A DNA stretch of 64,000 bases from Diphasiastrum complanatum. Its lineage: Eukaryota > Streptophyta > Lycopodiopsida > Lycopodiales > Lycopodiaceae. The notes beneath the pieces were generated by a model, which saw only the letters and a list, made by a program, of their open reading frames with translations, did no database searches and was not told where the DNA came from. The position numbers and the translations under genes were made by a program. Where the stretch lies: the NCBI GenBank assembly GCA_029204225.1, contig CM055101.1, forward strand, positions 43,611,546-43,675,545, written 5' to 3'. Below, piece after piece: positions 2,334 through 64,000 of the stretch (within the stretch, counting starts at the first letter, position 1; each line of letters starts with the position of its first letter).

Positions 2334-3484
2334 CTACTCATCATCACTTCCTCCCTCCTCGCCTCCTTCATCTTGTAGGTGTATGTTGGTGTCCACATCT
2401 TCAAACTCCCCTTCGCTCTCATTCACGTTTTCTTCCACATTTTGCTCCTCAAAATTTTTCGCATGTTCTTCCACATCACAAACACTTGAAGTTGTAGAGC
2501 CTTTCTACAAAATAGAATCAAAGATTCAATTAAATTGAGATTAAAGTTACTTGTAAACCACAAAGTAAACAATCACAAGACAATAAAGATTAAGAGTTTA
2601 CGATTGGAAACAATCCATGGGATTCCATAAAAGCCTTAAGGCCGGCATATCCATGATCGTAACCTTGTTTGTACTCTGCGACGGTCATGTGTCTTCCAAA
2701 ATGACTAAGATACATTCAACAAAAAAACATAGTTTAGCAATACAATATAGTTTAGCAATAAAAAACATTAACAATCTCACTACAAAAATAGAATCATAGT
2801 AAAAAATATTGCACTTACAAATTGGGCCTCTAGATTGCCCCTTCCTCCCGATCCCAAGTGACTTTGGCCATGTTTTAAGAGCTTCTCGGTGGCGGCCCTA
2901 CGTTGTTGTTCATACTTTTGGGGATTGTTTTGCAACAATTCTCCTTTCACCTTTCTCCAATCCCTTTTGGAGCACCATCCAGGCTTCCTGGGATTCTTGG
3001 GATTCCTCACAACTCTTCTCATCAATTGCCTTTTGTTTTGAATCCAAAGGCACATTGAATTCAAGGCCCAAGTCCTACTAAAAGCATTGGATTGAGGGAC
3101 TTCATAATATAAAGTCTCTATTATTTTATTTTTGTCTTCAAGCGATTGGGAGGACCAATCGATCATGTAATCTTTACCAAAATATAAAACAACTAAATCA
3201 CGCAAACGGGCATGAACTACATTGCCACGCGTATTTTTTATAACTCCACCACGTGGATTAAGATCATAATACACACTACACAATTCCTGGGAAGGGACAT
3301 CTTTGGAAGCTCTTCTCTCGGATGATTCACCCGAAGAAGATAACACAAGATTTTTGATTCTATCTCTTTGTTGAGGAGATAGATTCTCAAACCACTCTTG
3401 ATTATATTCTTCAGGCTCCTCACAAGCTCTTCTCCTAGATGGTCTCCCACTTGACATTTCACTTGACCTACCACTTGAAGACAT
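2334..3484 (-). CDS. Spliced transposon-type gene, possibly Ptta/En-Spm family (tentative)
   Basis: Three exons can be read: 3484-2819, 2704-2602 and 2504-2334 (stop TAG). Exon 1 starts at an ATG with a Ser/Arg-rich leader (MSSSGRSSEMSSGRPSRRR) and encodes 222 residues. It is rich in Trp and basic residues and ends with RRAATEKLLKHGQSHLGSGG, which recalls plant Ptta/En-Spm transposon proteins. Exon 2 reads GRHMTVAEYKQGYDHGYAGL. Exon 3 is a very acidic tail ending GGEEGGSDDE. The donor after exon 1 (GTAAGT) and the acceptors (CTTAG, TTTTGTAG) look genuine. The exon 1-2 junction is out of phase by one base, so either a 1-nt indel has broken the gene or I misplaced one splice site; exons 2 and 3 are in phase. 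Repeat clusters with the same palindrome on both sides suggest the gene belongs to a small DNA transposon. The family assignment is a pattern impression only. Confidence 0.5.
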
Positions 3485-3834
3485 TGTATCAAAGAAAAAC
3501 TTTAAAAGTTAGAAAGTAGTAGAGAATGAGAGTGAAAGAGTAGTGAAGACTTTTAGATTAGAAAAGTAAGCAATGACAAGAAAGCAATAGATTAATAGTA
3601 AGCAAGAACAAGCAAGATCAATACCAAGCAAGATCAATAGAGCACTCAATAGCAAGAGTAAGATCACTAGCAATGAAGAGCAACCAAAAGCAAGCAAGCA
3701 AGCAAGCAAGATCTATAGAGCTTGGATAGCAAGCAAGAGCACTAAACACTAGATTAGAAAAACCTATAAAACTTGAAAGCAAAAGAAGAGGAGCAAGAAT
3801 GCTCGCGAAAATGTTGTCTTATTGGCATTCAAGT

Positions 3835-3900
3835 TTCGCGTGGATTATCCACGCAGAAGTTATCCACGCGATATCCACACATGGATGTTCCACGCAGTTT
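3835..3900. repeat. Second palindromic GCGTGGATTATCCACGC repeat cluster
   Basis: CGCGTGGATTATCCACGC is followed by TTATCCACGCG, ATATCCACAC and TTCCACGCAG within about 60 bases. It shares the module 'atccac(g/a)catggatg(c/t)tccac' with the end of the block near 1180-1205, in the same orientation. This supports the two clusters belonging to one element or one repeat family. Confidence 0.7.
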
Positions 3901-5170
3901 TTTTTCCCTCTCTTCACACGTGAGAGGGTCCCTTACATGGGCTTGCATGCTTTAAATGTCATTCAATATTCTTATAATCTTTTCTAGATTTTATAAGAAT
4001 ATTTTATCGTAGGATTTTACATAAAATATATTTTTTAATATGATGGAACATAAAAAAATCAATTCAAAGATCGTTATTGTAGTATTTAATTGTTAAAACT
4101 AGTTCTATATCGTTATATATTTTATTTTTCTTGAGATTTGACATACAAGGCAAAATCATGAGATAAGAAATAGTACATATTATTATTCAACATGCAATTT
4201 GACAAGTTTTTTAAGATTTTATGACATAATATTATGTCAAATTGGTGATGTCATAAAACATAGTTTATTAATAATCTAGGTGTCATAGATTTGATATAAT
4301 TTGATGACATAATTATATGGCCAAATAGAAAAATTTTGCTTTTGTTATGTGGCCTCTTAAATGGTTGCATGAGGTCATTTAGTTTTAGGATCAAAAGCAT
4401 TTATGTTATATTGAGGACCTTAGTGATATGTGACCTATATGATATATCTTTTTAATTGTTGGTGTGTGACCTATATAACCTTATATGAAATCATAGTAAT
4501 TAGTTGAAATATCATTTAGCATTGTAATAAAGATGTTGATCAATGGTGTGCTATCTAGTATATGATTGCTTGACATTGTCCAATTGCTCGTCTTTTCTTT
4601 TCGATTCAAGGAACATCATCTTGCATACAAAGCAACCATAGATAGAAAGGGCAAATGCATATTGCTCGTCATGAGATACCATGGCACACTAGGCCAATCC
4701 AAAGAGATTTATCCCTGACTAACACGAGCCAAGTATTAATTAATCAAATGAGTGATTGAATGGGCAATGAATCAATTGAGTATATGACTGATTGTTTGAT
4801 TTTGATTATTCCATCTTGAAAGAACGATTAAGTGAGATCATCACTCATCTTGGACAAGAGTTCAAACTGAAAGCTTCGAACATTGACTGCCATGTGGTCT
4901 TTAAATTAGTTGAGATAGGCCTACGCACACTGTCTACTGATGTCTAACATTTGTCAATATGAATCTCATTTTGATTGCTCGTCATGTGTTGCCCCACCCA
5001 AGCAATTTTCTTGATAGCAATGTTACTAGAATATTAGATTTACATTAAGCATAACTAGAATATACATGGATTAGATGTTGGCATGTCTTTAACAAATTTT
5101 ACTATATGTGTTCAGTACATATGGTCTCATAATGACTACTTATGATGGGGTATAGAGTATCTGGCTATAG
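3901..5170. other. AT-rich noncoding stretch
   Basis: No recognisable coding sequence on either strand. Around 4190-4320 the words 'gacataat' and 'gatgtcata' recur in a TA-rich context. Nothing further can be supported. Confidence 0.3.
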
Positions 5171-6065
5171 TGTATATGACATCGACGATGTCATCATCAT
5201 CAGATAGTGATTCATCTCATGATTGCAGCAGTAGGTATATATTGTTATTGATATTGACATCAATTGCACTTTATTTGTTATTTGAATATGAGTGTATAAT
5301 TTTTCTTGCAAATTTATTCTTACAATGATATTTGATTGGAATTATGAATTCTAGGAAAATTATTGTACCTCCACGTGATTTAGAGAAAGAAAAAAGAATT
5401 GAGCTCTATTATAGAAAAAAGGAGCAAGCAAGACTAAAGTACAATGAACAACTATTGACTGGTTCATCTTCAAGCTCTTCCATCAGGCGACGTAGACCTC
5501 CTATTGATCCATCACATGTATGTATATTGATTTATGTCACGATTTTTTTATTTGTAATAGTGATGTACTCCGATTTGGTTGAGAATTGTGACATAGTATA
5601 TTGCTCTTTGGAAAGCCAAGACACCACTCCATCACAAATGAAGGTTGCAAATATACTAAATGTACAAAGACTATTTTGTCAATTTTTGTCACATGTTAAA
5701 ATTTGTCAATTTTCACTTGAATGACACTGAAAGAATTTGTGCAATTTGCAATTGGATTATTGGACTAGTTTCAACCAGAATATGATGAGAGGATACCATG
5801 TACATGCACATAATGCAAAGGCCTTAGGATTTGGACAAGGAGGATTGTCAATGATCATATTTGGGCCAATGGAGTGCACACAGAGAATCCAAGAGTACGA
5901 GAGGTAAACTCTTTATAGTGTTTTTTGGAAATGCTTTAATCTTTGACCCTTATGACACTTCAAGTATAGTTTGGCCAATAAATATTGATCGATAGGATGA
6001 GTGCCACGATACTTTGAAGTTAATCTCTCACTTGCTTCCAATCACCCATAATAGACTCATTTACA

Positions 6066-6233
<168 letters not shown>

Positions 6234-7243
6234 AAAGGTAACCAACACTCCCAATTCTAGGAAGGTGTGTAGCCCTTGTTTTCTTCCATTAAAGGCGTGG
6301 TTCAAATGTTTTTTTGTTGGAAGATGAGTTCCACAAAAAAGCCCAAGCGTTGTAGGGAGGGTGCATGTGGTGACACGTTGGAGTAGGATATAATCGTGTG
6401 GTTTAGGACTTTTGATTAGCACTCTATAATGTTCTCTCTGTTTTTCTCTTCATGTGTGTTTAGGGTGGGTGTGTGTTGGTTGTGAAAAATTGCCTACATT
6501 GGCAAATCTAGCCATGTAGAATATTGTACATTTTGTCAATATTGTTTGTTGGTTACTTGAATGGCCAAAGTGCCACTTGTACATTCACACCTAAAGTAGG
6601 TTACCACGAGTCAAGAGGAGTGGTTGTGTCCGTTTGGTAGTGATTCCTACTTTGTAGGATCTAGACCATGATTTATAATGAGATTTGTACCTACCATGCA
6701 CCTATCAAGCATGACTCTTGGATCTAGGCTAGGGTTTTCACATTAGGGCAAGAAAGTTGAGTCTACTTCCTTATTACATGCTGAATTTTCACCTAACTTA
6801 GCAAAGGAAGTGTCTTTTTATTATGTGAGATAGAAACTTTTTGGAGCCTCAAGGAGAAACTCGAGTTTCCTCTCATTGTATGGTGATTGCTTTTGATTCC
6901 AATGAAACCCAGCTTTGGCACATTCTAAACACTGTCTACAGGCCATACTATAGCCTTATTTCCACACGTGTGGAGTTGGATTATAGTTATTGATCAATGC
7001 TTTGATTGTCTCTACTTGTTTTCTATCAAGCTGCTAAACTAGATCTTGTTTTCTAATGACTAGTATGTGATAGATTGTTTAACAAGCACACAATCAACCT
7101 TGTGGATCATTCAAAGATCCATTTATGGTCCTTAGTACTGTACTTTTAACATTGGTTTTGTGCGTGCGTGCGTGTGTTTGTGTGTGTTTGTGTTTCATGC
7201 TATTGGTTTACGGTTTGTGTTATATATTAATTTATGTTTCATG

Positions 7244-7375
<132 letters not shown>

Positions 7376-8421
7376 TGATACATCTAATATTTTCAACTTT
7401 TGTAGAAGAAGGAACATAAGTTGGTTTTAAGAAAAAGAGTCGCAAGAGAGATCGAGAATATTATTAATAGGATAAAACATATGAATATTGATTTTGGATC
7501 ATCATTGGCCTTAGACGATGCTCTTGTTGATGATGACCCCTTGCATGATATAATTAGTTCATCAATGCCTTGTGATTCAATCCATGTCTCCAAATCTCTA
7601 GAACGTTGACCACAATTGGGGTGATTGGCATGCTTTGTGTTGTCACCCATGGAGGATGCAAGTATATGGCTTGAATTCAAATGCTTGTTCTTTAGAGGAG
7701 CAACGCATGCAAGGAGGCAACATCTCAAAGGCAAATCATACATACATTGATGGACGTCCAGATGTGCATGGAAACATTGCTACATATATAAATAGTTCCA
7801 TTGGCTACCCTCTATTGACGAATTGTGATTTTGAAGAACGCACCAATGGAAAAGAAGAGTATTTTACTAGGAATGTAAAGGGCACTTATGTAATGGTCTG
7901 TTCCACTAGATCTATCAGGTTTGGGGAGGAATTGTTCATCAAGTATAGTTTCAATCGTCCTCTACCCAAATATTTGCAAAAGACAATAATTCAAATGTGA
8001 AGATTTGAATTTTGTTGATATGCAGAGATGTATAATCCATGCATCTTGATTGTATTTGGTTTGTGTCATTAAATATGTCAAATGTTAGGAGCATTATTCG
8101 TCATTTGCCTAGATGTTTAGATAAGATAATAAGTGAGAGCTAATGAATGTGAAATTCATTAATATGTAAATATGTAGAAGCATGCAATTCTTTGAGTTCA
8201 TTGAATATTAAGAAGTTGAAAAGAAAAATGCTCCAATAGATACATCGGTATGTTCATACTTTTATATATTCATATGCAACATTTAGATCTATCAAGTATT
8301 GGGAGGAAATGTTTATCAAGCATTGTTTCAAACTACTTCTTGTTATTTTGGTATATAGAATTCTTCATCCTCATTTAGCGTTGGAGACAATAATCCTCAT
8401 AATGGTCGACGTAGACGATGA

Positions 8422-11122
8422 ATGCAATACAACGGTCCTCATATAAAGCAATTACCTCGTCATCTATGTCAAGCCTTAAAAGAGATGATGGAAATAGTTG
8501 AGCACATTAATCAAGAGACTAATGCATCTGAATCTAGATCATCTAGATCTACTTCTTCGCAAACAAGTTCCAACGATGAAAATGAGCTTCCAATGAGTGA
8601 TGAATTTGAAGTCATGGGAGACATGTTGGATGATATGTACGAGAACAATAGTGCAGCTAGACACAATGACCAAGATGAGGAGGCACTTTTGTCTAAAGAA
8701 GAAATGAAATCAAAGACCGCATTGTATCCTGGAGCAAAGACATCTCGTTTGGCGACTTCTCTACTTCTATTAAATCTTCAAGCCAAATATAGATGGAGTG
8801 ACCAAAGCCTCACATCATTATTTGAGTAATTTTTTTTTCATTTACTTGTCATGTTTGCTTTGAAACAAAACTTACAATTTGGACATCTAGTGAGAATTTT
8901 TTTACAATGACTTCTTTTGTCATGTACAGACTATTGAAAAACAAAATTCTCTTAGAAGAGAATGTCATGTCTGAGACAAGAGATGAGGCACGAAAGATGT
9001 TGTCTAACATCGGGATGGACTACAAGCAATATCATGCATGTCCAAAAGATTGTATTTTATATCGAGGAAGGTACGAATCACTCAAGAAATGTCCCATTTG
9101 TGATACTCCTCGACATAGAGATGATTTGCAAGGGGCAACCATTCCATGCAAAGTTTTATGACATTTTTCAGTAATTCCATAATTGTAGCGTTTATTTTGT
9201 TGTAAACCTCTTGCACAAGTTATGGACTGGCATGCACATCATACCTCTACGGATGGGATGATGAAGGTACCTTTAGATTCACCTGCATGGAAACACATCA
9301 ACAAAGAGTATCCAGGCTTTGCCAATGAGTCAAGAAATGTGAGATTTGGTCTTGCAACATATGGTGTGAACCCCTTTGGTGTACGAGCAACTATGTGGTC
9401 CATTTGGCCTGTTTGCTTGGTAAATCATAATATTCCTCCTTGGTTGAGTAAAAAAAAAGGGACACATTATGATGGGACTTCTAATTCCTAGCCAACGCAA
9501 GGTTAAGAACATGGATGTGAATCTTGAGCCGCTTATTGATGAGTTGGAAAATTTGTGGAAGGGGATAAAAGCATATGACATTTCGCACCCCTTACATGAG
9601 AGGGAATTTACACTACATGCCATTGTAATGTGGACAATGCATGACTATCCAGGATTAGGTGATTGCTCAGGTAATCATTCAAACAATGTCTATCTTGTGT
9701 ACATAGGAGTTTGTTTACAGTTACATACAACTAGTAACTCCTGACATCTATATGATATACTACAATGGCTATAATTATTCCTTGACATATACTTTTCTAA
9801 TAGTGATTGATAGTATCCATTTGTTGGGCAGACTTTCAAACGACTGAAAAAATGTTTGTTTTTTTGTGCGGGCCAAATCTTGTGGAAACATACTCTTATA
9901 GTCTCAAAAAAGTGGTTTATGAAAATAATTGTAAATACTTGCATGAAGGCCATCCATTTAGAGACACTCATAGAAGAGGTTTTGGAGGAAGAGTTGAGAG
10001 AGAGATGCCTCCAAAGAGGATGTCTGGGAGAAATCTCAAGCAAAGCCAATCGATGAAATGAAAAGATTATCTATATTTCATCATTTGGAATATTGGAATA
10101 ATCTTTTGATTAATCACCTACTTGATCCCATGCACATATTTAAAAATGTGGGTGAATCTATTTGGAAACACTTGATTGGTGAAAAAGATACCATTGTTGC
10201 AAGGCACGATCTAAAAGAATCAAACATCAAAAAAGAATATTGGATAAAGGATGGTGAAGATCATGCTCCAAAAGTACCTTGGACATTCACTAAGAAGGAG
10301 CTTAACCATGTGTGCTCCATTATTCATGACATTAGAACACCAACTAGTTTTGCCCATTCTCTACGGTCATCATTCACGGTGGATGGAAAGTTGCAAGGTC
10401 TCAAATCTCATGATTGGCTAAAGATGATTCAATTCATCTATCCATTGTCAATTCGTGGGTGCTCGTCAAAAGATATTTGTGAGACCATATACAAACTATC
10501 AATCATTGTCAGGTATTTACAAGTACTGGTGCATTTTTTTATTTAGTATTTATTGACTGGAAATTCAAATAGACATAAAATGGATTGAATATGTTGCAGA
10601 TGGATGTGTTCAAAAGAAATCCACAAGCTGGATCTTCGCAAGAGACATGAGCATATGGTGGAGATTGTGTACATGTTTGAGAGATATTTTCCAACTTCCA
10701 TCATGGACTCAAAAGTGCATTTATTGGTGCACTTGGTTGAAGAAGTTTCTATTGCTGGTTCAGTGCACACTAGGTATAAATGCATAAATTTTCTTTTGCA
10801 TGTGTATTTAAACTAAATCAATTGATACATGAACTCATTAAATAAAACACTTATTTTTAACCATTTGTGACTTTTTAGGTGGATGTTCTTTATGGAAAGA
10901 TACATGAAAATCTTAAAAGATTTTGTGCGTCAAAAGGCAAGGCCTAAAGGTAGCATGTCAAAGGGATGGTTAGTACATGAATCTCTCTTTTATGTTATTG
11001 AAATTTTGCACCAACTACATCCATCTGCTCCACTATTGTGGCGTGATGGGGAAGCCGAAGAGGTAACGAGTGAAAAACCTCAAGGGATGGGTAAGGTCCA
11101 TAGGTTGTCACCCTTCCAATGA
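8422..11122 (+). pseudogene. CACTA (En/Spm) TNP2-type transposase, decayed
   Basis: Blocks follow the TNP2 (Transposase_21) family in order. The N-terminal block ends WSDQSLTSLFE (exon end 8825). Its in-phase continuation from 8930 contains ARKMLSNIGMDYKQYHACPKDCILYRGRY and CPICDTPRH. Then come AWKHINKEYPGFA, NPFGVRATMWSIWPVCLVN and PPWLSKKKG (9222-9480); LIPSQRKVKNMDVNLEPLID (9475-9680); a GHPFRDTHRRGFGGR block (about 9820-10060); LLDPMHIFKNVGESIWKHLI with GLKSHDW (10058-10510); and HLLVHLVEEVSIAGSVHTR joined to RWMFFMERYMKILKDFVRQK (10604-11080). It would catalyse cut-and-paste transposition. At least three in-frame stops occur around 9160-9200, in the segment preceding MDWHAHH, and a frameshift lies in the A9 run near 9451. 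CpG/CNG-type C-to-T change explains several stops. It is not functional as it stands. Confidence 0.9.
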
Positions 11123-32471: not shown

Positions 32472-33028
32472 ATCTAAGATAGACTTCTATCTTTCAAAAA
32501 TCTTCTAATCTCGGCCCAATCAATCCTAGTTCAACTTGGATGATGGTATAATAGATCAACTACAAATATCCTAGCAATTCACTCCTCCAAAATATTGATT
32601 CTAGTATTCCTGCAAGACAGGCAGGAATACTTACCACTATACTACAACAAAAACATTTAATAGAGATTCGGTTCTGAATCTCTTACTCAGAGAGGTCCTC
32701 ATGACATAGTACCTCAACCATACCTGCATCTCAAGCTATATCTCAACCATACCTGCATCTAAGATAGATTTCTAGCTTTCAAAAAGCTTCTAATCTTGGC
32801 CCAATCAATCCTAGTTCAACTTGGATGATGGTATAATAGATCAACTACAAATATCCTAGCAATTCACTCCTCCAAAATATTGATTCTAGTAATCTTGCGT
32901 GACAGGCAGGAATACTTACCATTATATTACAACGAAAACATTTGATAGAGATTCGGTTCTGAATCTCTTACTCAGAGAGGTCCTCAGGACATAGTACCTC
33001 AACCATACCTGCATCTCAAGCTATATCT
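32472..33028. repeat. 285-bp tandem duplication
   Basis: Two head-to-tail copies (32472-32756 and 32757-33028) share most of their sequence, for example 'ggcccaatcaatcctagttc' and 'gattcggttctgaatctctt', with a handful of differences. The unit also contains the 10-bp-arm inverted repeat 'gagattcggttctgaatctc'. It lies just upstream (in element sense) of the copia gag. Confidence 0.9.
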
Positions 33029-36488: not shown

Positions 36489-36602
36489 GCTCTGATACCA
36501 TGTCAATTCTCAGAGAAAAAGGACAAATATGATTGTACTATCAATCATTAAGAGTTATTGGTTGCTAAATCCAAAAATTTATCAAGTTATGAGGAAACAA
36601 AG
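36488..36602 (-). repeat. Copia PBS and truncated LTR edge
   Basis: The minus strand reads TTGACA then TGGTATCAGAGCC (36500-36488), an LTR end followed by an initiator-Met PBS. The LTR continues to 36602, where another copia LTR begins. The rest may lie beyond 41394, but I could not prove that. Confidence 0.6.
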
Positions 36603-37610
36603 TGTCTCTGAATACAAAGCCTTGCTAGCTTACGGCCCCTCGCTTGACAAACATGTTCGCGAACTCGAACATCTGAATACACGAAACACGAAGAGTTTTG
36701 CGAATACAAAAGTCAACGAAGACAAAGACCAACTGTTCACGAACACGAATGATCCACGAACGAGATTCCCTTGCGGTCCTATACGAGAGAAAGACGGACG
36801 AGATAAATGAAACCAACGGTGGAAATGAAATCCGTTCTGTTCTCACGCCCCAAGAAGTACCACCAGAGATCACGCAAGTACTAGAAGTACAGACATCTGA
36901 CCTGATGGCATGATGTCAGCAGATACTCCCTAGGTCGTGGCTAAACTGCCATGCTTGTAATTCTCTGGTTAGTTGTAGATGGTTAATCACTCTAATCTTA
37001 GATTTGCATAGAGAGACTGTACTTACTGAATAATACTTGACATATATCAATAGGATACACAATGTGTAACCAAGTAAGAAGAACAAGAAGTAGTCTGATG
37101 CAAGTAAGCAATCAAGACAAACACAAACAGAAGCTCCGTCTGTGTGCGAGAAGATAATTCTGTCTAGGATCAGAAGATCCAATTGTCTGCTAGTGAAGTG
37201 AGACTACTACTCGTGAGAGAGCCATGCTTCTCTCACGCCAACGCATTGCGTGGATTCGCATGTAGTGCCCTGAAGAAATCAGAGAAAATCAATATAGATT
37301 ATTTTTCTGGCTGTGGCTGATCTTTGATGTCGAATGCTTATGCTGTTTATTTTAATATGTCTGAGTTTTCTTGTTCCCTTTGAATTCTGCACCTTGGTTG
37401 AAATGAAGTCAAATGCTATATTAATTTTATGAACGTAGATCAGTAGTACCTGACTACCCTCTGGAGGATTGTAGGAGTGTTTCAGCTGGCAGTGCCCAGT
37501 GAACGCATCTAAACTCCATCCGAATCTCGAAAGAGAGTCGTGAATGTTTTGCAAATTTTTCTTCTCACGATTCTCAACAGTCGTATCCAAGCACTGCTCG
37601 ACTCACAACA
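36603..37610 (+). repeat. Copia 5' LTR
   Basis: About 1008 bp, TGTCTCTGAATAC...CTCACAACA, a direct repeat of 40400-41394. Numerous substitutions and a few indels separate the two copies, so insertion is not recent. Confidence 0.92.
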
Positions 37611-37723: not shown

Positions 37724-40408
37724 AATGGCTTCAATCAGCAGCATGCAGAACAAGATCTGCACTATACTTAATTCTTCAAGATCTAACTTTCTAGCCTGGA
37801 AAGTTAAGACATATTTGATACTCAAGGGCGAAGGACTCTTCCCCTAGGTGGATGGCACAGAAGAAATGCCTACGACAACAGGCAAGGAGCTACGCGAATG
37901 GAGGGAGAAAAACAACAAGGCAGTAACCTTGCTATCATCTTCCATCGAAGATAGCCTTATACTTGACCTGGCTATACTCTCCAAAGCTAAGGAGATGTGG
38001 GATACACTGCTCACAAGATTTCAGACGAAATCAAGATGTTAGATTATGATGCTGGAAGATCAACTGACGAATCTGCAGTGGGATGGAAAAGACCTCACCT
38101 CTTTTGTGAGAAAGATGAAGGATCTGTTTCTATCACTACACAACTCAGGAGCAGAGAATGCAGTATCAACTGAGAAGCAACTCACATATCTGTTGAGAGC
38201 CTTACCCAGATCTTTCCAGATGACATGAACCCTACTCACGAAAGATCCTACCGTGAACCTCGAAAAGGTGATTGTCGAGATTCGATAGGAAGTCGAGGTC
38301 GGGGAGCATCTTGATCACAAAGATGGTTCTGACCAAGCACTCTACGGCAACAGAGAAAAATCAAAGAAACAATTCAAGCCTAAGAGGGAGTCAAATTAGA
38401 GGCAGGATCGTGACCAACAAGCAGAGGGGACCAACAAAAGCAACTGGAAGACCAAAGGGAGGTCAAAATGACAAGATGCCGACAAGAAAACCTGCACGAG
38501 ATGTAGAAGAGATGGGCATACAGTAGATACCTGCTGGCTCAATCCCAAGATTGAGTGTATCCATTGTCATAAGAAGGGTCATGCAGCCATGGATTGCTGC
38601 CAGAACACAAGAAATAGATCAGCACAGAACAGACATGAGAATGATAATAGTTCTTCCTATGTTGAGGGCTCAAAGATGGGCAAAGAAAGAACGAACAAAA
38701 ATTGTTCGACCGCCTACATCTGTGAAGATGTGTGTGCAGCATCAACGTTTGACACACACGAGGTGATCCTGGATTTGGGAGCCACCTCACACTTCGTGAC
38801 ATCAAGACGAATCATGTCTGATTTCAGAAGTGCAGATTCCTCAAGATTCATAGTTCTTGGAGATGGATCCAGACATCACGTGAAAGGTTTTGGTTCACTC
38901 TGGCTCAACACCAATGGTAGAGACAGACGGCCATTACCTCATAAGCCCAAGACTGTCAAATGCAAATGGGTTTTCAAACTCAAATATGGACCAGACGAGA
39001 GTGTGACGAAGTACAAGGCAAGACTGTAGCAAAGGGTTTCTCTCAAAGATACAATATTGACTATTCTAAAACCTTTTCTCCTGTCGTCAAACATTTGTCC
39101 CTACGTGTGTTGTTTGCATATGCAGCAGCTTATGACCTCAAGATCCACATTGTGGACAAGAAAACAGCCTTCTTGCATGGCGAATTAGACGAAGAGCTCT
39201 ACATGGATCAACCCCCAGTATTTGTCTCGAATTCACTTCCTGACTATGTATGCAGAATGCATAGAAGCATCTACGGTCTGAAGCAATCAGCCCAACAATG
39301 GTACAAGAAGAAGGATCAGGCCCTGAAATCATTGGGATTCAAGCCCCTGTTGGCTGACTCCAATGTGTATGTCAGAGTTACAGATGGGCAGATAATCGTA
39401 GTGGCTGTATATGTGGATGACACTCTGATACTTTGCAGGAGTGAGCAGTTAATTGCTGAAGTAAAGACAAACATCTTGAAGCATTTCGACATAGTGGATC
39501 TGGGAGAAGCCAGGTGTTACCTATGCTTACAAATTGAAAGGGACTATGAGGGAGACAAGTTATACCTTCACCAGTTCAGATACACCTAGAAGATCCTAGA
39601 GGACTTTGGGATGCTGAACTGCAAAGGAGCAAACACTCCAATGCTCGCAGGAACGGTGCTAACAAATGACGACTGTCTAAAGACTGAGGAAGAAAGAGAA
39701 GAGATGCAACTCACTCCCTACAGAAGGCTGATAGGTTCACTGATGTACCTTGCAGACAACACACGTCCTGATATTGCTTATGCAGTATTCAGGATGAGCC
39801 AATTCAGCACGAATCCAGGCTCAACACATTGGAAGATTACGAAACGAATTTTGCAATATCTTCAATTAACGAGGGATTATGGCTTGTGTTATTGTCCTGG
39901 TGCAGGTCTCAGGAAACTTTCCTATAGTGACGCTGGCTAGGCATCTCTCAGGGACAACTGTAAAAGCTCAAGAGGATGCACCATCACATCAGGAGCAGCA
40001 GTTCTCTGGGTCAGCAAGAAGTAGACCATTGTAGCCCAGTCGTCTTGCGAAGCAGAGTACGTAGCAGCAACAAAGATGGCCAACAAAATACTTTGGTTAA
40101 GGCAGTTCCTGGACGAATTGGACGAAACAAGAAACGAGCCACTGGTCTTGCAGATGGACAACACCTCTGCAATACACCTCATGAAGGATCCCGTGTTCCA
40201 TTCCAGGACGAAGCACATTGCGATCAAGTATCACTTGATCAGGGATCTGATTGAGAAGAAGATGATGCAGACCACCTTCATTGGAACAAAAGATATGGTT
40301 GCTGACATCTCCACAAAGGCTCTGTACAAAGGACTCTTTGAGAGGCAAAGGATTAGTCTCGGGATCACAAAGCTACCAGAGGGAGCTGAAGAAACAAAGT
40401 GTTTCTGA
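37724..40408 (+). pseudogene. Copia polyprotein lacking integrase
   Basis: Blocks in order: gag (MASISSMQNKICTILNSSRS; LREWREKNNKAVTLLSSSIE; DGKDLTSFVRKMKDLFLSLH); two zinc knuckles at about 38490-38605 (CTRCRRDGHTVDTC and CIHCHKKGHAAMDC, both CX2CX4HX4C); protease with DLGATSHFV (Ser of DSGAT replaced by Leu). Directly after, in the same frame, comes the reverse transcriptase start KCKWVFKLKYGPDESVTKYK at about 38957. The catalytic VYVDD is at about 39410. RNase H runs to LFERQRISLGI at about 40370. Stops lie near 37845, 38041, 38227, 39029, 39587, 39940 and 40022. All of GAG_pre-integrase and integrase is missing. The protease-RT join reads through in frame, which is unusual for random decay. 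Polyprotein chemistry is reverse transcription in cytoplasmic particles; this copy cannot integrate by itself. Confidence 0.9.
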
Positions 40409-41394
40409 ATACAAAGCCTTGCTAGCTTACGGCCCCTCGCCTGACGAACATGTTCGCGAACTCGAACATCTGAAGAACGAAACACGAAGAGTTTCGTGAA
40501 CATGAAAGTCAACGAAGATGAAGACCAACGGTTCGCAAACACGAACGATCCACAAATGAGATTCCCTTGCGGTCCTATACGAGAGAAAGGCGGACGAGGT
40601 TAACAAAACCAACGATGAAAACGAACCCGTTCTGTCCTCACGCCCCAAGGAGTACCACCAGAGATCACACAAGTACCAAAAGTACAGAGATCTGACCTGA
40701 TGGCATGACGTCAGCAGATACTCCCTAGGTCGTGGCTAGACTACCACGCTTGTAATTCTCTGGTTAGTTGTAAATGGTTAATCACTCTAATCTTAGATTT
40801 GCATAGAGAGACTGTACTTACTGAATAATACTTGACATATATCAATAGGATACACAGTGTGTAACCAAGTAAGAAGAACAAGAAGTAGTCTGATGCAAGT
40901 AAGCAATCAAGACGAACACAGATAGAAGCTCCGCCTGCGTGCGAGAAGATAATTCTGTCTAGGATCAGAAGATCCAATTGTCTGCTAGTGAAGTGAGACT
41001 ACTACTCGTAAGAGAGCCGTGCTTCTCTCACGCCAACGCACTGCGTAGATTTGCATGCAGTGCCCTGAAGAAATCAGAAAAAATCAATATAGATTATTTT
41101 TCTGGTTGTGTCTGATCTTGGATGTCGAATGCTTATGCTGTTTATTTTAATATGTCTGAGTTTTCTTGTTCCCTTTGAATTCCACACCTTGGTTGAAATG
41201 AAGTCGAATGCTATATTAATTTTATGAACGTAGATCAGTAGTACCTGACTACCCTCTGGAGGATTGTAGGAGTGTTTCAGCTGGAAGTGCCCAGTTAATG
41301 CGTCTGAACTCCATCCGAATCTCGAAAGAGAGTCACGAATGTTTCTTCTCACGATTCTCAACAGTCATATCGGAGTACCGCTCGACTCACAACA
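40400..41394 (+). repeat. Copia 3' LTR
   Basis: About 995 bp, TGTTTCTGAATAC...CTCACAACA, partner of 36603-37610. A purine-rich stretch (GAGGGAGCTGAAGAAACAAAG at 40379-40399) precedes it as polypurine tract. The flanking five bases (CAAAG left, AGTTC right) do not match as a target duplication. Confidence 0.92.
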
Positions 41395-46575: not shown

Positions 46576-47719
46576 TGTGGTACGTTTGGTGTGTTGCTTA
46601 ATAGTGTTCATAACACTATAGCGGGGTTTTGGTATGATTATGAAGCCAGTCATAGGGTTTCTAGTTCGGATATTGCCATATATTATACTAGAAGGTAACT
46701 TAAGTTTGAACCCATTCACCTCATAAGTAATCCATCTCAAATATTCTTTTCAAAGATATAAATGTTTTTCATTTACTAATTCTTGTATTGTCTCCAATCA
46801 AGCAAACTTAATTTTATTCAATCTTTGATGCAATTGCCATGATTTATCTACGACTTGACCATCTTTTTCAATGGTTTTATCATGACAATGTATGTACTTT
46901 TGAAAATATATAATATATATATGGCTCTAATGGTGTTTTTTAACCACTTTGAGCGGTAGCTTTTCCATGTTTTTCAATGGTTTAGCAATATGGGATTTAT
47001 TATACTTGTAAATTGCCATTATGTTTGTTAAGCATAGAGCATATTCGGTAAACCAAAACATAAATTGAAATATATTTTATGCTGATTGTTTCTTACTTCA
47101 GACAGTAGCTTAGTGAATTATTACTGACTGTAAAACTATGTTTCTTACTGCAAAAGGTAAATCCATTAGTCATTTTTTACTGCATTAAACATTTAGTATA
47201 AATAGACTAATCAGAGTCCATTCTTTAATTCCATTCATAACCATTGAAATAATACACTGAATAACATTTACTCATCTTCTATATGTATTATGAAGTAAAT
47301 GAAGACATGAGTCAAAACAGAGATGAGCAATGAAAATTACCTCAGTCGTTTTACTCTGACTTAAGTTTCAAGAGACTGTCCATAGGCTAAGGTCTTTTCT
47401 TCAACATGCATCCGATTCTTTAATATCTTTATTTTTGTGGCTCATTCACTTTATTTCCAGACTGCCGGTTCCCATCTTAAATCTTTGCCGGGTGATCTCT
47501 TTCACTAAAAGAGATTTTTGAAACAAGAAGAAAGGAGGGAGGCTGAGTGCTGGAGCGCGACAGTGAGGGAAGAAGGACCTCAGGTGAGGGAGAGAGAGGG
47601 AGCGCGATAGCAGAGAGGGATCGCAGGAGGAATGGAGAGCGCAAGCAAGGGAGGGATAGATTTTGAAGAGGAAGGGGTGGACAGAACGCAGATGGAAAGC
47701 GCAGTTCTAGAGAGTAGGT
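46576..47719 (-). repeat. 3' LTR of gag-only retrotransposon
   Basis: Direct repeat with 50617-51765, starting TGTGGTACGTTTGGTGTG on the plus strand. It shares long nearly identical blocks, such as the region around 46600-46760 and the GA-rich block near 47520-47719. Homology ends at 'gagagtaggt'. Confidence 0.9.
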
Positions 47720-50616: not shown

Positions 50617-51765
50617 TGTGGTACGTTTGGTGTGTTGCTTAATAGTGTTCATAACACTATAGCGGGGTTTTGGTATGATTATAAAGCCAGTCATAGGGTT
50701 TCTAGTTCGGATATTGCCATATATTATACTAGAAGGTAACTTAAGTTTGAATCCATTCACCTCATAAGTAATCCATCTCAAATATTCTTTTCAAAGATAT
50801 AAATGTTTTTCATTTACTAATTCTTGTATTGTCTCCAATCAAGCAAACTTAATTTTATTCAATCTTTGATGCAATTGCCATGATTTATCTACGAAAGCTT
50901 GACCATCTTTTTCAATGGTTTTATCATGATAATGTATGTGGTTTTGGAAATATATAATATATATATAGCTCTAATGATGTTTTTCAACCACTTTGAGCGG
51001 TAGCTTTTCCATGTTTTTCAATGGATTAGCAATATGGGATTTATTATGCTTGTAAATTGCCATTATGTTTGTTAAACATAGAGCATATTCGATAAATCAA
51101 AATAGAAACTGAAATCTATTTTATATTGACTGTTTTTTTACCTCAGACAGTAACTCAGTGAATTATTACTGACTGTAAAACTATATTTCTTACTGCAGAA
51201 GGTAAATCCATTAGTCATCTTTTACTGCATTACACATTTAGTATAAATAGACTAATCAGATTCCATTCTTTAATTCCATTCATAACCATTGAAATAATAC
51301 ACTGAATAACATTTACTCATCTTCTATATGTATTATGAAGTGAATTAAGACATGAGTCAAAACAGAGATGAGCAATGAAAATTACCTCAGTCTTTTTACT
51401 CTGACTTAAGTTTCAAGAGACTGTCCATAGGCTAAGGTCTTTTCTTCAACATGCATCCGGTTCTTTAATATCTTCATTTTTGTGGCTCATTCACTTTATT
51501 TCCAGACTGCCGGTTCCCATCTTAAATCTTTGCCGGGTGATCTCTTTCACTAAAAGAGATTTTGGAACAAGAAGAAAGGAGGGAGGCTGAGTGCTGGAGT
51601 GCGACAATGAGGGAAGAAGGATCTCAGGTGAGGGAGAGAGAGAGAGAGCGCGACAGCAGAGAGGGATCGCAGGAGGAATGGAGAGCGCAGACAGGGGAGA
51701 GATAGATTTTGAAGAGGAGGGGGTGGACAGAACGCAGATGGAAAGCGCAGTTCTAGAGAGCAGGT
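50617..51765 (-). repeat. 5' LTR of gag-only retrotransposon
   Basis: Partner of 46576-47719, about 1149 bp. The outer edge at 51765 is not followed by TNP2 sequence, and no target duplication matches the left flank, so this end was probably trimmed or rearranged after insertion. Confidence 0.9.
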
Positions 51766-57728: not shown

Positions 57729-58215
57729 AATCATGCCCACCAAAAGGTTTATATTGTTTGGTAGTTCATACGACAGACCAAGAAAACTTTCCTGTTTAAG
57801 TAGCTTATCAATAATAAAACAAAGTCTGCTCCTTAAAAAATTGTTTTTTTGAAAGGCATCAATAAGTGTCAGTACCTCATTAAGAAAGGTAAGTTGTTTG
57901 TTACAATAGTACATGGCAGCAATTACTTGGAAAATGATAACATTGTACGAGTTAAGAATAGGTCTATTAGAAGAAAGATGTATTGTATACTTGAAAGGGT
58001 AGGTCCCTCCTTTTATCATATTTGGAAAGGTGCGTTATTTCGTAGTTGGATCAAAAGTAGTAGTAATGTTAAGGAAGTGTATGATATTCTTTTTTATGGT
58101 GATGTTATCAATCTCAAGATAATTCAATGGGCACATCCAAAATGGATTATTAGCTGATCTTTCTTGAAATTTATCCAAAAAATGATCGATAAAAGAGTTA
58201 TTTATAAATCATATA
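57729..58215. other. About 490-bp foreign block inside copia integrase
   Basis: Copia homology stops at RRPFPRSRDN (58216) and resumes at VFLTF (57728). The block between encodes nothing copia-like on the minus strand. On the plus strand 57849-58157 is open and reads VGPSFYHIWKGALFRSWIKS, then NVKEVYDILFYGDVINLKII. I do not recognise it. About 45 integrase residues, including the first catalytic Asp, are lost. Confidence 0.6.
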
Positions 58216-59090
58216 TTATCACGTGATCTAGGAAAAGGCCTTCTGTGTGACTTTGCCAGCACACAAGCTTCACAAGGTAGAAGCTCCTTTGACAATGTCT
58301 TTGGTAGACCAACAACTTTTCCTTCTTTGACCGTAGATTGCATGGCTTTGAAATTGGGATGACCCAACCTCTTATGCCACAGATCCTCCTGTAGAACCTT
58401 GGTCTCATAAGCAATATCTGAAATGTTAGCACTCTCCCTAGAATCTAGTTTGTACAACTTACCAATTCTAGATCCTCTAGCAATAACTTCATTTTCTCTT
58501 GAGATTATACACTTGTCAACTTGAAACTTGACATCCAATCCATTATCAAACAACTGTCCTACACTAATGAGATTCTTAGTCAATTTAGGTACATACAGTA
58601 CATCATGTAAGCAAAAAGATTTTGATGATGATGCATGTAATGGAATACTACCTATTCCTTCAATTCTACACTCTACGTCATAAGTAGTATAGATTGACCT
58701 TTTTGCACCTAAATATGGCATGAGATTAGTGAAAGAGTTCCTAGAACTAGACATGTGGGAACTAGCCCCACTATCTATCCACCAGACTTCTTCATTCTTA
58801 AAAAGATGAAAAAGTAGACATCATTAAGGAATCCTCTCTTTCACTCTCTACACCCTCACACTCATCCTCATTAGCAAGGTTAGCTTGCTTAGATTGGTTC
58901 TTCTTCTTGAAACAGTTTGATGCATAATGTCCTTTCTTTCCACAGAAAAAACACTTGATCTTTGACAGCTTCTTCTTGCCACTGGATGTTGCACCTTGTG
59001 AGGACTGATCCTCACCACCTTCTTTGGCTTTGTCCTTCTTGAAGTGTTGTTGTCCTTTGCCCTTGCCTCTTGACTTGTCTCTTTAGGAGT
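58209..59090 (-). pseudogene. Copia gag zinc knuckle, protease and GAG_pre-integrase
   Basis: The minus strand contains a Lys-rich region and zinc knuckle CFFCGKKGHYASNC (about 58945-58905). Protease is reduced to WWIDSGASSHMSSSRNSF (about 58780-58740). Next come HDVLYVPKLTKNLISVGQLF and DNGLDVKFQVDKCII, then GAG_pre-integrase LWHKRLGHPNFKAMQSTVKE, CEACVLAKSHRRPF. The gag core upstream of the knuckle is missing. A frame change or stop lies near 58795 and 59085. Confidence 0.85.
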
Positions 59091-59258
59091 GACATTTCTG
59101 AAAAAAGCCTACGCCATCTCTATCTTCAGGGTCAAAAACAAATGTTTAGCGCCATCTCTATCTCCAGTGGAGTCGTTAGTGCCATTTCCAGCTTTGTTAT
59201 TGTCATTGTGTTGTTTGTTACTATACTAATGTACTGATGACAAAGCTTTATCATCTTC

Positions 59259-60572
59259 ATGTGGATCTGTCACCAGAATGTTCCGCTCAGGACGAGAAAT
59301 TCAAAGCAGCCCAAATTTTCAACTTCTGATATAGTCCGATACAGGGACGAAAAGCTAAAGCATGTAGATTTATGGTCATCAGGAACATTGTATCCTATTG
59401 ATCCATGTTCATTGCAACATCCAGATTTTCATTCGGTGAGTCAGTTAATAATCTATATGTGTCATGGTAAAAATGACCTTTTGGGTTACTGTGAGAATTT
59501 GATGCTCTATGGAATGCACATTCAATGCAAAGAATACATTATTTGGAAGAGGAATCAAGGAAAATATCAAAGGAGTGCGAAGAAAAATCTACAAAGATTA
59601 AAAAATTGTTTGGATGAAAATGAGATGCTCAAGGAGGAGATCCAAAGGTAAAAAATCTTCTTTGTATCATTATACAACTAATAATGATGAGATAAAAATT
59701 GCATTTCAATCCATGCGTATCTCATATCCGTCTCTTGTAAAAGATATGAATGTGCTCAACAGAAAGGTTCGAAGCAACAAGAGAAAAAGACTGGTAAACA
59801 AGGATATATGTGATCTATCATCCAGAGGAGGTCATAGAAAAAGACGAATCCGTGCATTCAAGTAAGTTATAGCTTATTTGGTATTGAATATTGCTTGAAC
59901 TTTTTGATTCATTCATAATTATTGGAGGATCTAAAGCTTGAAGATTTTTATCAAATTATTCTGGCAAACAATCTAAGGTTCAATACACGGTTTGGAAAGA
60001 AATTATTGCAGCAACTCAAGGTTTTGAAAAAGAAGGTTCTACTCGTATACACAAAGTAGGAGTTTGGAAAAAGTTAGACAACATGGTGAAATACTTAAGA
60101 AAAGATAAATTTTCAAATACTGATGTACAAATGATACAGAAAACAACCAATGAATTTGTGGATGCAGTTTAAAGTGCATGGGGTGTTGATCATATAACAC
60201 ATTATATGGTAAGATTTTGATTTTACACTACGATAGACAAATATGTGCAATTAAATTAGATACTTTTGGTACTGATTTAGATTATGTTTTTATGACATGC
60301 AGCACATATTACGACATCATTCGACATTCTTTACAAGAAATAGTGGAAGTCTTAGCATATGGTCATCGTAAGGAATGGAAAAATATCATTGGCAAACAAG
60401 AGCGGCATTTCATAAAAGTACACAACATGGTGGGACTAGCACGAAAAACAGCTATATACTACAACTTTTTCAATGGTTTTACAGAAGAATCCAAATTCGT
60501 CATAATACAAAATCGACGGATTATAAAAAATTTCAAAAAGCATACAAATTTATACAAGCTAGTAGGCTATAG
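59259..60572 (+). pseudogene. Spliced transposase-like gene with QGxEK C-terminal domain (unclassified)
   Basis: Four exon blocks are readable. 59259-59647: charged, ending in a helix (NCLDENEMLKEEIQR) before a GT. About 59690-59861: QSMRISYPSLVKDMNVLNRK, very basic, before GTAAGT. 59942-60208: VQYTVWKEIIAATQGFEKEG, VWKKLDNMVKYLRKDKFSNT and AWGVDHITHYM, before GTAAG. 60303-60572: HILRHHSTFFTRNSGSLSIW, WSS(stop)GMEKYHWQ, then LFQWFYRRIQIRHN. The last two join in phase. ITHYMHxLxxH, GSL and the WSSxGMEK site match a family of uncharacterised proteins, common in invertebrate genomes, with ITPYxHxLxxH...FSxQGxEKxN and thought to be transposon-encoded. Two stops (60171 and 60369) are both TAA where CAA (Gln) is expected; at the second site Gln is the conserved residue. 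Superfamily not settled; a KDZ-type element is one possibility. Confidence 0.55.
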
Positions 60573-60773
60573 ACACATAATAAAATTTTGTATATTGAAT
60601 AAAAATATTTACAACGTACAATTCAGCAGTATCTAATCTGCTTCCGATATTTTCTCCAATGAAAGTTGCAACTTAGAATCATACAACAAGTTTCTTCTTT
60701 CGTATGGATCCAATAGCTCATAGGTTTCATGCTTACTCAGATCAACGTAAGCAACATACAATGCAAAATGAGA

Positions 60774-61620
60774 TTATCTGAGCATGGAATTCACTGGTCC
60801 ATATCCTAAAATTTTAACCGCAATAGTTTTCTTTACAAAAATTATTTTATGCACCTTATTGAAATTATGTCCTCCAAGAAAATGAGACAGTGCCTTGATT
60901 GCCATAATCATAGTTTTACCATGTTGATGAAACTTTGAATGGGCAACACTTATCTCATTATTCTTGAAGGACTTTAGATAGTGCCCCAGTGCATGATCTC
61001 TTGAAAATTCTCCAGCATTGTTTCCTGAAATGTTAAAAAACAAAGTAAGCTCCAGTATATAATCTGACATAACAAATCTACTAGTACTTGATAAGATACA
61101 AAAACTTACGCATTCGGCTTTGTCTTCCCTGATTACTGTCTCTCCATCAATACTATGTCCACCTTTTGATGTCAATATTGTTGGTGAATAGACACTTGGC
61201 TGTGGAAAACCAAGTTGACTTTGAGTTCTAAGAAACTCCTCCTCAGAAGGTAGATCATCTTCTTTGTTGCGCATTTCCTCCACAGCCATTTTCAAACAAT
61301 CTTTCCATGAATAAAACTTATCATTATGTACATCGTCAACACCAGGGAGAAGATTATCAGCATCAAAATCAATTATATCCGAAAATTCATCAAGCTCTTT
61401 GTTCAGAATGCAAAGAGTCTCAACTTCAGTGAAGTAAAAAAAATTCGATATATCCGATATTGTCAAAAAAGAATTATTATCTATATTATAAGTAGGCAAA
61501 GTGATCAAAGATTTATCAGAAGGAGAAAGAGTAGTGGGTGTTCTAGGGCCTATAAACGTAGCCCTATTTCGAGCATGATCAAAATCAGAACAATCCTCTT
61601 GATGATGGATGCATCAAAAC
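60774..61620 (-). pseudogene. Convergent gene of unknown function
   Basis: The minus strand is open from about 61620; first ATG at 61508 (MITLPTYNIDNNSFLTISDI). It encodes an acidic domain (ELDEFSDIIDFDADNLLPGV, MAVEEMRNKEDDLPSEEEFL) to a GTAAGT donor after DKAEC (about 61109). A TTTCAG acceptor near 61027 opens exon 2: EFSRDHALGHYLKSFKNNEI, SVAHSKFHQHGKTMIMAIKA, ending GYGPVNSMLR with a stop at 60774. As drawn, the exons are out of phase, so either a small indel or a missed splice site is present. I do not recognise the family. The exon 2 pattern has a faint Alba-like look, not enough to call. It points toward the gene at 59259-60572 with about 200 bases between their 3' ends, so both may belong to one element. 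Confidence 0.45.
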
Positions 61621-62190
61621 CCAAGAGTTTTTTAAATATTTTCTTGGCACCCATAATCCATTATCATCTGTCTTGTTGAATAGATGTATAGAGTCGATTG
61701 AAGAGCACGGCTTCCTTGATGGTGCCATTCGTAATTTGCATGCAAAAATTTGAAACAATGAACTATGAATCTGAAAATTTGCATAGACAAAAAGCCATGA
61801 ATCTGAGAAAAAGTGTTGGCAAAAATTTGAAACACTGATCTATTTGGCGCCACAAATTAACTTTGGTTAACCCTGTTAACCATGATTTGACAATGCATAT
61901 ACATTAATGGTACATCGATTTTCTCATCTCAACCATCTGTCATATACATTTTCAATATTTTTGGGTCTCTTCGAGCAGTGATGAGCTGGAAGGGCAGGCC
62001 TAATCAACCAATAGCATTTCCACATGCTGCCCGACGAAACAACAATATATTTAAAAAGTTTTTATTTTATTTATATTTGGAAAATTCTATGTTACGTAAA
62101 ACCCCGAAGCTAAGGTTTCAATTGGTCCACATGGCAACAAAAATAAGAAAAAAAATCAAAAAAACATATTTTTTAAAGGCCCTCGTCGGG
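61621..62190. other. Unassigned sequence
   Basis: A short phrase 'gcaaaaatttgaaacaatga / ggcaaaaatttgaaacactga' occurs twice near 61741 and 61819. No supported coding sequence. Confidence 0.3.
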
Positions 62191-62199
62191 TTCTAAGTT

Positions 62200-62544
62200 T
62201 CTCTAATGTGTCGCAGGGCCTAAATGTCAAGTTAGTGAATAAAGTTGGGTTTCCCTCCAATTTGGATGGTTCTCACACTTTTTTAAATTTGAATAATTAG
62301 GGAGGTAGAAATGGACCAATAGGATTCAAAGGCCAGGGTCCTCCTCTCTATTATAAAAAGGGACCAACTCGAGTTCCTACACATGTTCATTTCCTCATTT
62401 CAATAAAGCAGATTGGTTCTCCTCAGAAAGGGATTGATGAATGTCCTTGCTCTCTATCACTTTTTCTCCATCTCTCATGCTTTCTTTGGTTTTTGCTTAT
62501 TGTTGTCTTGGATTCAAGCTAGGCGAGGAAAGAAACCCACTACA
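62200..62544 (+). repeat. 5' LTR of short gypsy-type element, truncated
   Basis: Direct repeat with the right LTR over about 62210-62505 versus 63529-63814 (for example 'gggcctaaatgtcaagttag' and 'gaccaactcgagttcctaca'). It ends AACCCACTACA before the PBS. Its 5' part is missing compared with the right copy. Confidence 0.8.
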
Positions 62545-63358: not shown

Positions 63359-64000
63359 TGTTGGAGGGTTTGCGGATCCCAAGGCAACCCTAACCCTAGT
63401 TAATAAGTGAGAGGGATTTGGCACCCTGCGTATGTAAGTCCAGCCCGATGATTACATAGTTATTTGATTAGTTACAAGTCAATAAAAGGACTTTAGGCCT
63501 TTTTGCGGGACTTTTAATGTTGCGGGGCCTAAATGTCAAGTTAGTAAATAAAGTTGGGTTTCCCTCCAATTTGGATGGTTCCCACACTTTTTTAAATTTG
63601 AATTATTAGGGAGATAGAAATGGACCAATAAGATTCAGAGGCCAGGGTCCTCCTCTCTATTATAAAAAGGGACCAACTCGAGTTCCTACACATGTTCATT
63701 TCCTCATTTTAATGAAGCAGATTGGTTCTCCTCAGAAATGGATTGATGAATGTCCTTGCTCTCTATCACTTTTTCTCCATCTCTCATGCTTTCTTTGGTT
63801 TTTGCTTATTGTTGGATCTGAATGTTATTGGGATTGTATGTTATTATATTTTTTATGAGAGAGAAAGGGAGAGAGAGAAAGAGTAAGCTATTTCTATTGT
63901 GGATTGTAGTGTTAATGGATCGTAGTGTTAATAGATGTGTAGTGTTAATGTTTAGGGTTAATGGATGTTAGTGTTAGATTTGGATCCTCCATTCATGTTG
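63359..64000 (+). repeat. 3' LTR, running off the window
   Basis: It starts TGTTGGAGGGTTTGCGG after the polypurine tract. It contains the block shared with the left LTR, then a GA-rich patch and short tandem repeats (63906-63983). The end is outside the window. Confidence 0.75.
63906..63983 (+). repeat. About 16-bp tandem repeat, TAGTGTTAATGGAT type
   Basis: Roughly five degenerate units of 'gtagtgttaatggat'. A related phrase ('gatggatgttaatagtatg', after a GA-rich run) occurs at 1640-1755 at the other end of the window. Confidence 0.7.

Follow-up and report, generated by a model that had tools for sequence, protein, structure and literature searches.

What is the convergent pair of spliced gene remnants found near one end of a 64,000-nucleotide stretch of the Diphasiastrum complanatum genome (hereafter the window), and does it belong to a mobile element? 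The original prediction placed the pair at 59259..61620 and saw in it a possible two-gene, undescribed plant DNA transposon. Comparison with other genomic copies confirms the observation and supports its interpretation in part. Taken whole, the region is best explained as what is left of a plant DNA transposon with several genes, a copy now dead through internal deletions, a reading to which we give a probability of about 0.72.

A repeated unit with inverted ends

Window positions 59900-61700 were used as query against the whole 1.74-Gb genome. At least 41 matches were obtained at 40 scored places. In 38 of them, counting the window itself and two near-identical local duplicates, the match covers both convergent genes (query 22-1695 or more); the remaining two reach query 1362 and 1373, well inside gene 2. 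The two genes thus lie in one unit, as had been supposed. Searching at the protein level with the 3' portion of gene 1 gave at least 203 matches, 119 of 16,834 candidates being scored. As only the best candidates were scored, these copy counts are lower bounds.

Two fuller copies possess both ends and measure 10,238 bp and 9,000 bp (aligned copies, for which neighbouring stretches of two loci were joined). They start with CATTAG and finish with CTAATG, the terminal inverted repeats being imperfect (25/31 bases match). Every 5' end found opens with CATTA, while the preceding base varies among copies. Helitrons have TC...CTRR ends without inverted repeats, and this class is ruled out by the inverted repeats and the CATTAG...CTAATG ends.

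The proposed limit of two genes does not stand: the fuller copies, 9-10 kb long, hold at least four gene regions, namely the transposase-like gene 1, gene 2, a histone H3-like gene and, near the right end, gene 4. We refer to these copies and their close relatives as family 1. In its fuller copies, the interval from gene 2 to the histone gene holds two tandem units of about 600 bp each (6059-6645 and 6648-7221 of locus L010, about 81% identical).

The two genes contain introns and match no family, as ordinary decayed host genes might. This origin is next to impossible, and we reject it: the same arrangement recurs on many chromosomes, with sharp, precise ends and empty sites.

Insertion without target-site duplication

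Four copies with both ends (L010, L012, L020 and L027) were compared with empty sites, and the target-site duplication is 0 bp in 4/4. Aligning the flanks of copies, as originally suggested, therefore yielded the expected terminal inverted repeats but not the expected target duplications. In a stretch of L013 with 83% identity, the two flanks of L020 meet exactly. For L027, the joined flanks match 40 of the 40 listed Copia places across the junction, and two of its empty sites (L058 and L059) are seamless when read base by base. The joined flanks of L010 were matched at no fewer than 40 full-length places, of which two (L063 and L064) were read and are seamless at the junction. L012 is a weaker case: its flanks join gap-free in a 71%-identical paralogue inside the window (7653-7901).

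The four target junctions read AAC|ACA, AAA|CCA, GCT|GAT and CTA|GCC. These four sites lie in Copia and other repeats, with no pointer to satellites. A CATG target with AT duplication, suspected from the ends alone, is ruled out by the empty sites. The element is a repeated DNA transposon with CATTAG...CTAATG inverted ends and no target-site duplication, and in this the prediction of a plant DNA transposon is upheld.

The window copy

The two genes originally placed at 59259..61620 are real, but the unit to which they belong is longer: aligned by blastn to the two fuller copies, the window copy spans 59083-62208 and is retained as three pieces. Its features are as follows (element coordinates refer to the 10,238-bp copy).

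59083..59919, plus strand: left piece, equal to element 254-1049 (blastn to the two fuller copies, 93-100%)
about 59241-59864, plus strand: gene 1 exon 1 remnants, inside the left piece
59921..61599, plus strand: middle piece, equal to element 2424-4148 (blastn, 92%)
59942..60208, plus strand: 3' part of the penultimate exon of gene 1, with TAA at 60170
60209..60302, plus strand: gene 1 intron, GTAAGA...CAG
60303..60572, plus strand: last exon of gene 1, with zinc-type HxxxxH, the GSLSIWSS*GMEK block and the predicted catalytic Glu; TAA at 60369
60633..61024, minus strand: gene 2 exon 2, its end being the stop of its relatives, placed by eye against L006
61025..61109, minus strand: gene 2 intron, GTAAGT...TTTCAG
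61110..61613, minus strand: gene 2 exon 1 without its 5' part, convergent with gene 1
61594..61668, minus strand: probable remnant of the gene 4 first exon (tblastn from L061, 44% over 25 aa, E 0.004, weak alone)
61594..62208, plus strand: right end of the element, equal to element 9624-10238 (blastn, 94%)
62178..62208, minus strand: right terminal inverted repeat, reading CATTAGAGAAAC... on the minus strand

The left piece aligns in two parts (59083-59125 and 59150-59919), and the first 253 bp of the element, including the left terminal repeat, are absent. Ahead of the middle piece, a deletion of 1,374 bp (element 1050-2423) has taken the first two predicted catalytic Asp, and both Asp regions are missing from this copy of gene 1. 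A second deletion of about 5.5 kb (element 4149-9623), ahead of the right end, includes the histone gene. The window copy lacks the parts for acting alone and could at most be moved by other copies.

Several other repeats were seen in its surroundings. A Copia gag-pol fragment (Pol_BBD, gag_pre-integrase; 58209-59082, minus strand) ends at the truncated left edge of the element. The right end of the transposon is also the exact start of a 297-bp direct repeat (62209-62505 and 63518-63814, 96% identical, 1,309 bp apart) that resembles the LTRs of a small retroelement. Repeats in direct orientation, about 1.0-1.15 kb long, at 46576-47719 and 50617-51765, and at 36590-37610 and 40387-41394 (95% and 92% identical, respectively), are probably LTR pairs, and a 285-bp unit forms two tandem repeats at 32472-33028 with 95% identity. 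Near-identical copies of the element occur three times within about 100 kb (G000:C10 43671445, 43705233 and 43773627), one of them inverted, which may reflect local segmental duplication or an assembly effect.

Gene 1, a probable transposase

Both gene models are borne out. In other copies of gene 1, one exon reads SALVVEDHL...KLDES...IWWLAAFQ, the next VLKEDH...EWHLAGDLK...SKHPCLYC...HITHYM, and the last HILRHH...GSLSIWSSQGMEKSHWQARA. The exon junction originally drawn at 60208/60303 is accordingly found again as the HITHYM and HILRHH exon edges, with the GTAAGA...CAG intron between them. The claim that both stops are TAA in place of Gln codons proved right as well. At 60170 the fetched places carry CAA or CAG in 26 of 36 cases, TAA in 3 and other sense codons in 7 (diverged lineages). 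At 60369, where Gln had been expected to restore a QGxEK motif, 34/37 have CAA, and TAA is confined to the window copy and the two duplicates that nearly match it.

We consider it likely that gene 1 encodes a DDE-type transposase of the RAG1/CACTA group, in line with the earlier suspicion that the plus-strand gene is transposon-encoded; the product looks like a transposase. The predicted residues are the Asp in KLDES, the Asp in GDLK followed by CxxC, then HxxxxH and the Glu in QGMEK. GDLK...CLYC is kept in the readable alignment rows except that of L034 (CLYY), though not all of 16/18 rows can be read there. YMHILRHH aligns gap-free with RAG1 H937 and H942. The last block, ITHYMHILRHHSTFFARNSGSLSIWSSQGMEKSH, gave an ungapped score of 57 against a 34-letter RAG1 stretch, and none of 2,000 shuffles scored as well (mean 28.5, sd 4.2, maximum 52). 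The catalytic Glu of RAG1 was located through PDB rows reading EGNESGNK and EGNQSGNK, the latter with Gln at that position. In RAG1, this block supplies the two zinc-binding His and the catalytic Glu.

The likeness to RAG1 is confined to this block. There, hhalign of gene 1 with RAG1 gave a probability of 3.6% (E 0.012), and a gapped alignment of the two was no better than shuffles (z 1.3-1.6). A PDB profile search with gene 1 returned 0 matches; Pfam and NCBIfam gave nothing usable, with no Pfam transposase at E up to 10. PDB matches to mitochondrial mS27 (E 0.7) were regarded as chance, and Pfam matches to BLYB, CbiC, DUF1717, PB1 and coiled-coil families fell below their own cut-offs and were set aside. 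The AlphaFold model is poor (mean pLDDT 35); its strand order (the strand bearing the first Asp, two further strands, helices, then a strand ahead of the second Asp) would fit an RNase H core, which we take only as a hint.

Genes 2 and 4

The GTAAGT and TTTCAG sites assigned to the minus-strand gene are present, and in copy L016 a splice of gene 2 at them is in phase. In the window, by contrast, bases were lost right after the acceptor and exon 2 is out of frame at its start, with an additional stop at 60774-60776. The Pfam search gave no family match for gene 2. A relative occurs in the diverged locus L033 at the same position and on the same strand. The first exon of gene 4 is clear in copies L012 and L015.

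A histone H3-like gene

In L020, the frame beginning MARTKSTARAITT matches the Pfam family Histone with an E-value of 2.5e-25, as well as CENP-A/H3 chains in the PDB. PF00125 was found in four loci (E 2.5e-25, 1.3e-21, 3.1e-11 and 1.3e-28). The third of these values belongs to L033, where gene 1 is about 70% identical and the order is again gene 1, gene 2 (minus), histone (plus). Among 22 non-redundant fetched places, 12 supplied rows for the histone, and 12 rows served part of the selection test; 13 held too little histone or none, being short loci or carrying deletions.

The family 1 protein keeps the H3-type tail start ARTK.TAR. Leaving out the near-duplicates L011, L017 and L007, residue 4 is Lys and residue 9 is Ala in all 13 non-redundant copies readable there; in L033 they are Lys and Leu, respectively. 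Compared with H3, the tail is shorter by about 13 residues, and no counterpart of Lys27 or Lys36 is seen in the alignment.

The histone-fold protein might have a structural role in the transposition complex, or help in targeting, e.g. to centromeric chromatin, rather than serve against silencing, an explanation we hold possible but less likely than not. It would suit the long extra C-terminal part of the family 1 protein and the long N-terminal part in a second family described below, and CENP-A and H3 score alike by phmmer (74.5 and 74.1 bits). Against it, family 1 retains its H3-type tail start and its alignment to H3 outscores that to Arabidopsis CENH3 (208 vs 173), and the four insertion sites examined do not point to satellites.

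With a length of about 10 kb, several genes, inverted ends and a host-like histone gene, the element also recalls an endogenous DNA virus or virus-like element. We regard such an origin as very improbable: no capsid, polymerase or other viral family was matched in the part of the open frames that was scanned, and no viral relative was found in IMG/VR (three pattern scans) or in phage records.

A second family

A genome search with H3 gave at least 152 matches, 150 of 6,101 candidates being scored. By hand count, the 150 listed comprise 13 at 97-99% identity (host H3), 10 partial ones at 79-93% and 127 at 51-59%. Many of these 127 diverged-type matches carry no stops. They do not appear to be family 1 histones: 17 were read, and 17/17 belong to another type, in which the H3 fold is C-terminal. 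The H3-type tail is absent in all 17 family 2 loci sampled, and a canonical H3 tail with Lys4, Lys9 and Lys27 is found in neither family.

In one such locus, L061, three upstream frames show a relationship to family 1 gene 4, with lowest tblastn E-values of 9e-10, 3e-10 and 2e-10 and 0/2,000 shuffles as good in each of the three comparisons. A candidate terminus, CATTAGGGCCC, read in L061 alone, lies 547 bp before the first base region of this locus, as family 1 geometry predicts. The family 2 gene 4 stretch recurs at 40 or more scored places at no less than 97% identity (of 503 candidates), and by hand comparison 12 of 40 such places have a listed H3 match within 5 kb on the same strand. Because of the L061 frames, the candidate terminus and this proximity to H3, family 2 appears to share terminus type, gene 4 and histone with family 1. 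Compared with family 1, its histone lies on the opposite strand relative to gene 4. In family 2 no transposase was seen. The stretch 789-1154 of L061, part of family 2 gene 4, has a weak, sub-threshold likeness to the PB1 (ubiquitin-like) domain.

Selection on the coding frames

Between lineages, the coding frames were under protein-level selection. For the gene 1 exon with the second Asp (D2), dN/dS is 0.08-0.18 in 9/9 pairs, against 0.80-2.47 in shifted frames. The last exon of gene 1 gives 0.07-0.17 (3/3 pairs) and gene 2 gives 0.22 (1 pair), both below shifted frames. The histone protein reaches 0.41-0.58 (3 pairs; shifted 0.77-1.82). In the D1 exon of gene 1, 7 of the 9 between-lineage pairs are saturated.

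Within family 1, several genes failed the out-of-frame control (0.62 in frame and 0.53 in frame +1 for the pooled omega), and the signal is frame-specific only for gene 1 exon 1 (0.28) and the histone (0.46). Low ratios between lineages, together with the unclean test within the family, suggest decay of the copies themselves but selection on the lineages. The feature in the window is more than chance, as its unit recurs genome-wide and keeps its frames from one diverged lineage to another.

These ratios bear on a rival view, in which the element captured the histone gene as a passenger that multiplied with it but has no function for it. Gene capture is common among plant transposons (PMC13317346), and a fungal hAT took histone H3 to hundreds of copies, all inactivated (PMC6710886). 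In addition, two family 1 histone folds compare at a dN/dS of 0.80. We nevertheless think the passenger explanation unlikely. Family 1, L033 and family 2 have all retained the H3 fold, with synonymous change between the families saturated (type 1 against type 2: dS saturated with dN 0.55-0.61 in 9/10 pairs, dN/dS 0.20 in the tenth). A passenger would decay, yet 127 of the 150 listed genome matches are of the diverged H3 type, many of them stop-free.

Relation to known transposons

The best reading of the element is a plant transposon lineage that is RAG1/CACTA-like but without target duplication. EnSpm/CACTA elements have a CACTA terminus, a 3-bp duplication and, in plants, a CACTA transposase domain; here the terminus is CATTAG, the duplication is 0 bp at 4/4 sites and no Pfam transposase is matched. 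This makes an ordinary but drifted CACTA/EnSpm member quite improbable, even though CxxC, HxxxxH and CA...TG ends are common to that group (PMC12730594).

The CMCT group comprises EnSpm/CACTA, Mirage, Chapaev, Transib, Plavaka, ESTA and Lanisha (PMC12730594). With this group and RAG1 the element shares a C(2)C that follows the second Asp and an H(4)H that precedes the Glu, as well as CA...TG ends. It differs in carrying a histone gene, and no similarity of gene 1 to RAG1 over the full length could be detected. Members of the group make 2-5 bp duplications (PMC12730594), whereas the element makes none, which is a mark against simple membership in the known RAG1/CACTA-like lineages. A lack of target-site duplication is shared with Spy (PHIS; PMC4482050). 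Spy has an AAATTT target and a PIF/Harbinger-type transposase, unlike the element, whose junctions are not AAA|TTT and which has no Pfam match.

Histone H3 on a DNA transposon is already known in fungi. The hAT of Pseudocercospora fijiensis carries H3, makes 8-bp duplications and is present in hundreds of inactivated copies, and H3-carrying transposons occur in other fungi too, the Pyrenophora case included (PMC6710886). The element resembles this hAT as a DNA transposon bearing an H3-like gene in hundreds of copies, and differs from it in its plant host, its transposase type, the absence of duplication and the H3 fold kept between lineages. Other transposons carry genes that act on host silencing: VANDAL with the anti-silencing protein VANC, HarbingerS with a SET methyltransferase, and TET/JBP-bearing fungal transposons (PMC12730594 and PMC13317346). 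The element's histone may be alike in such action, while none of those carried genes is a histone.

In one open-access library we found no description of the element, nor of any plant H3-carrying transposon or RAG1-like plant element without duplication, and the word 'histone' is absent from a 2026 review of plant transposon gene capture (PMC13317346). The plant case is thus unreported in the open-access library searched, in agreement with the prediction of an undescribed element. Since subscription papers and Repbase reports lay outside this scope, the negative is no proof of absence.

Proposed mechanism and meaning

We propose the following course of events. The gene 1 transposase probably binds the ends and excises the element, which is then likely joined to staggerless (blunt) target breaks; with such breaks, no duplication would form. 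The H3-like protein might enter nucleosomes, possibly those of the element itself. With neither Lys9 nor the methylation sites further along in its tail, it would not receive the silencing marks deposited by the host on transposons, and the element might so escape them. Evasion of H3K9 methylation by this protein is what we infer from its tail sequence.

In its widest form, the proposal is of a new plant superfamily, with a RAG1-type transposase, no target duplication and a long-held H3 variant of its own that kept Lys4, lost Lys9 and would work as an anti-silencing device against H3K9-based silencing. We put it forward tentatively, with the odds rather against it.

If the histone is made and used, silencing would be disturbed at the nucleosome itself and not through enzymes or DNA binding. 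The element-type H3 genes would then outnumber the host H3 genes in this genome (127 vs 13 near-identical ones among the 150 listed, by hand count). Finally, a RAG1-like transposase that inserts its element without target-site duplication would broaden the known range of this enzyme group.
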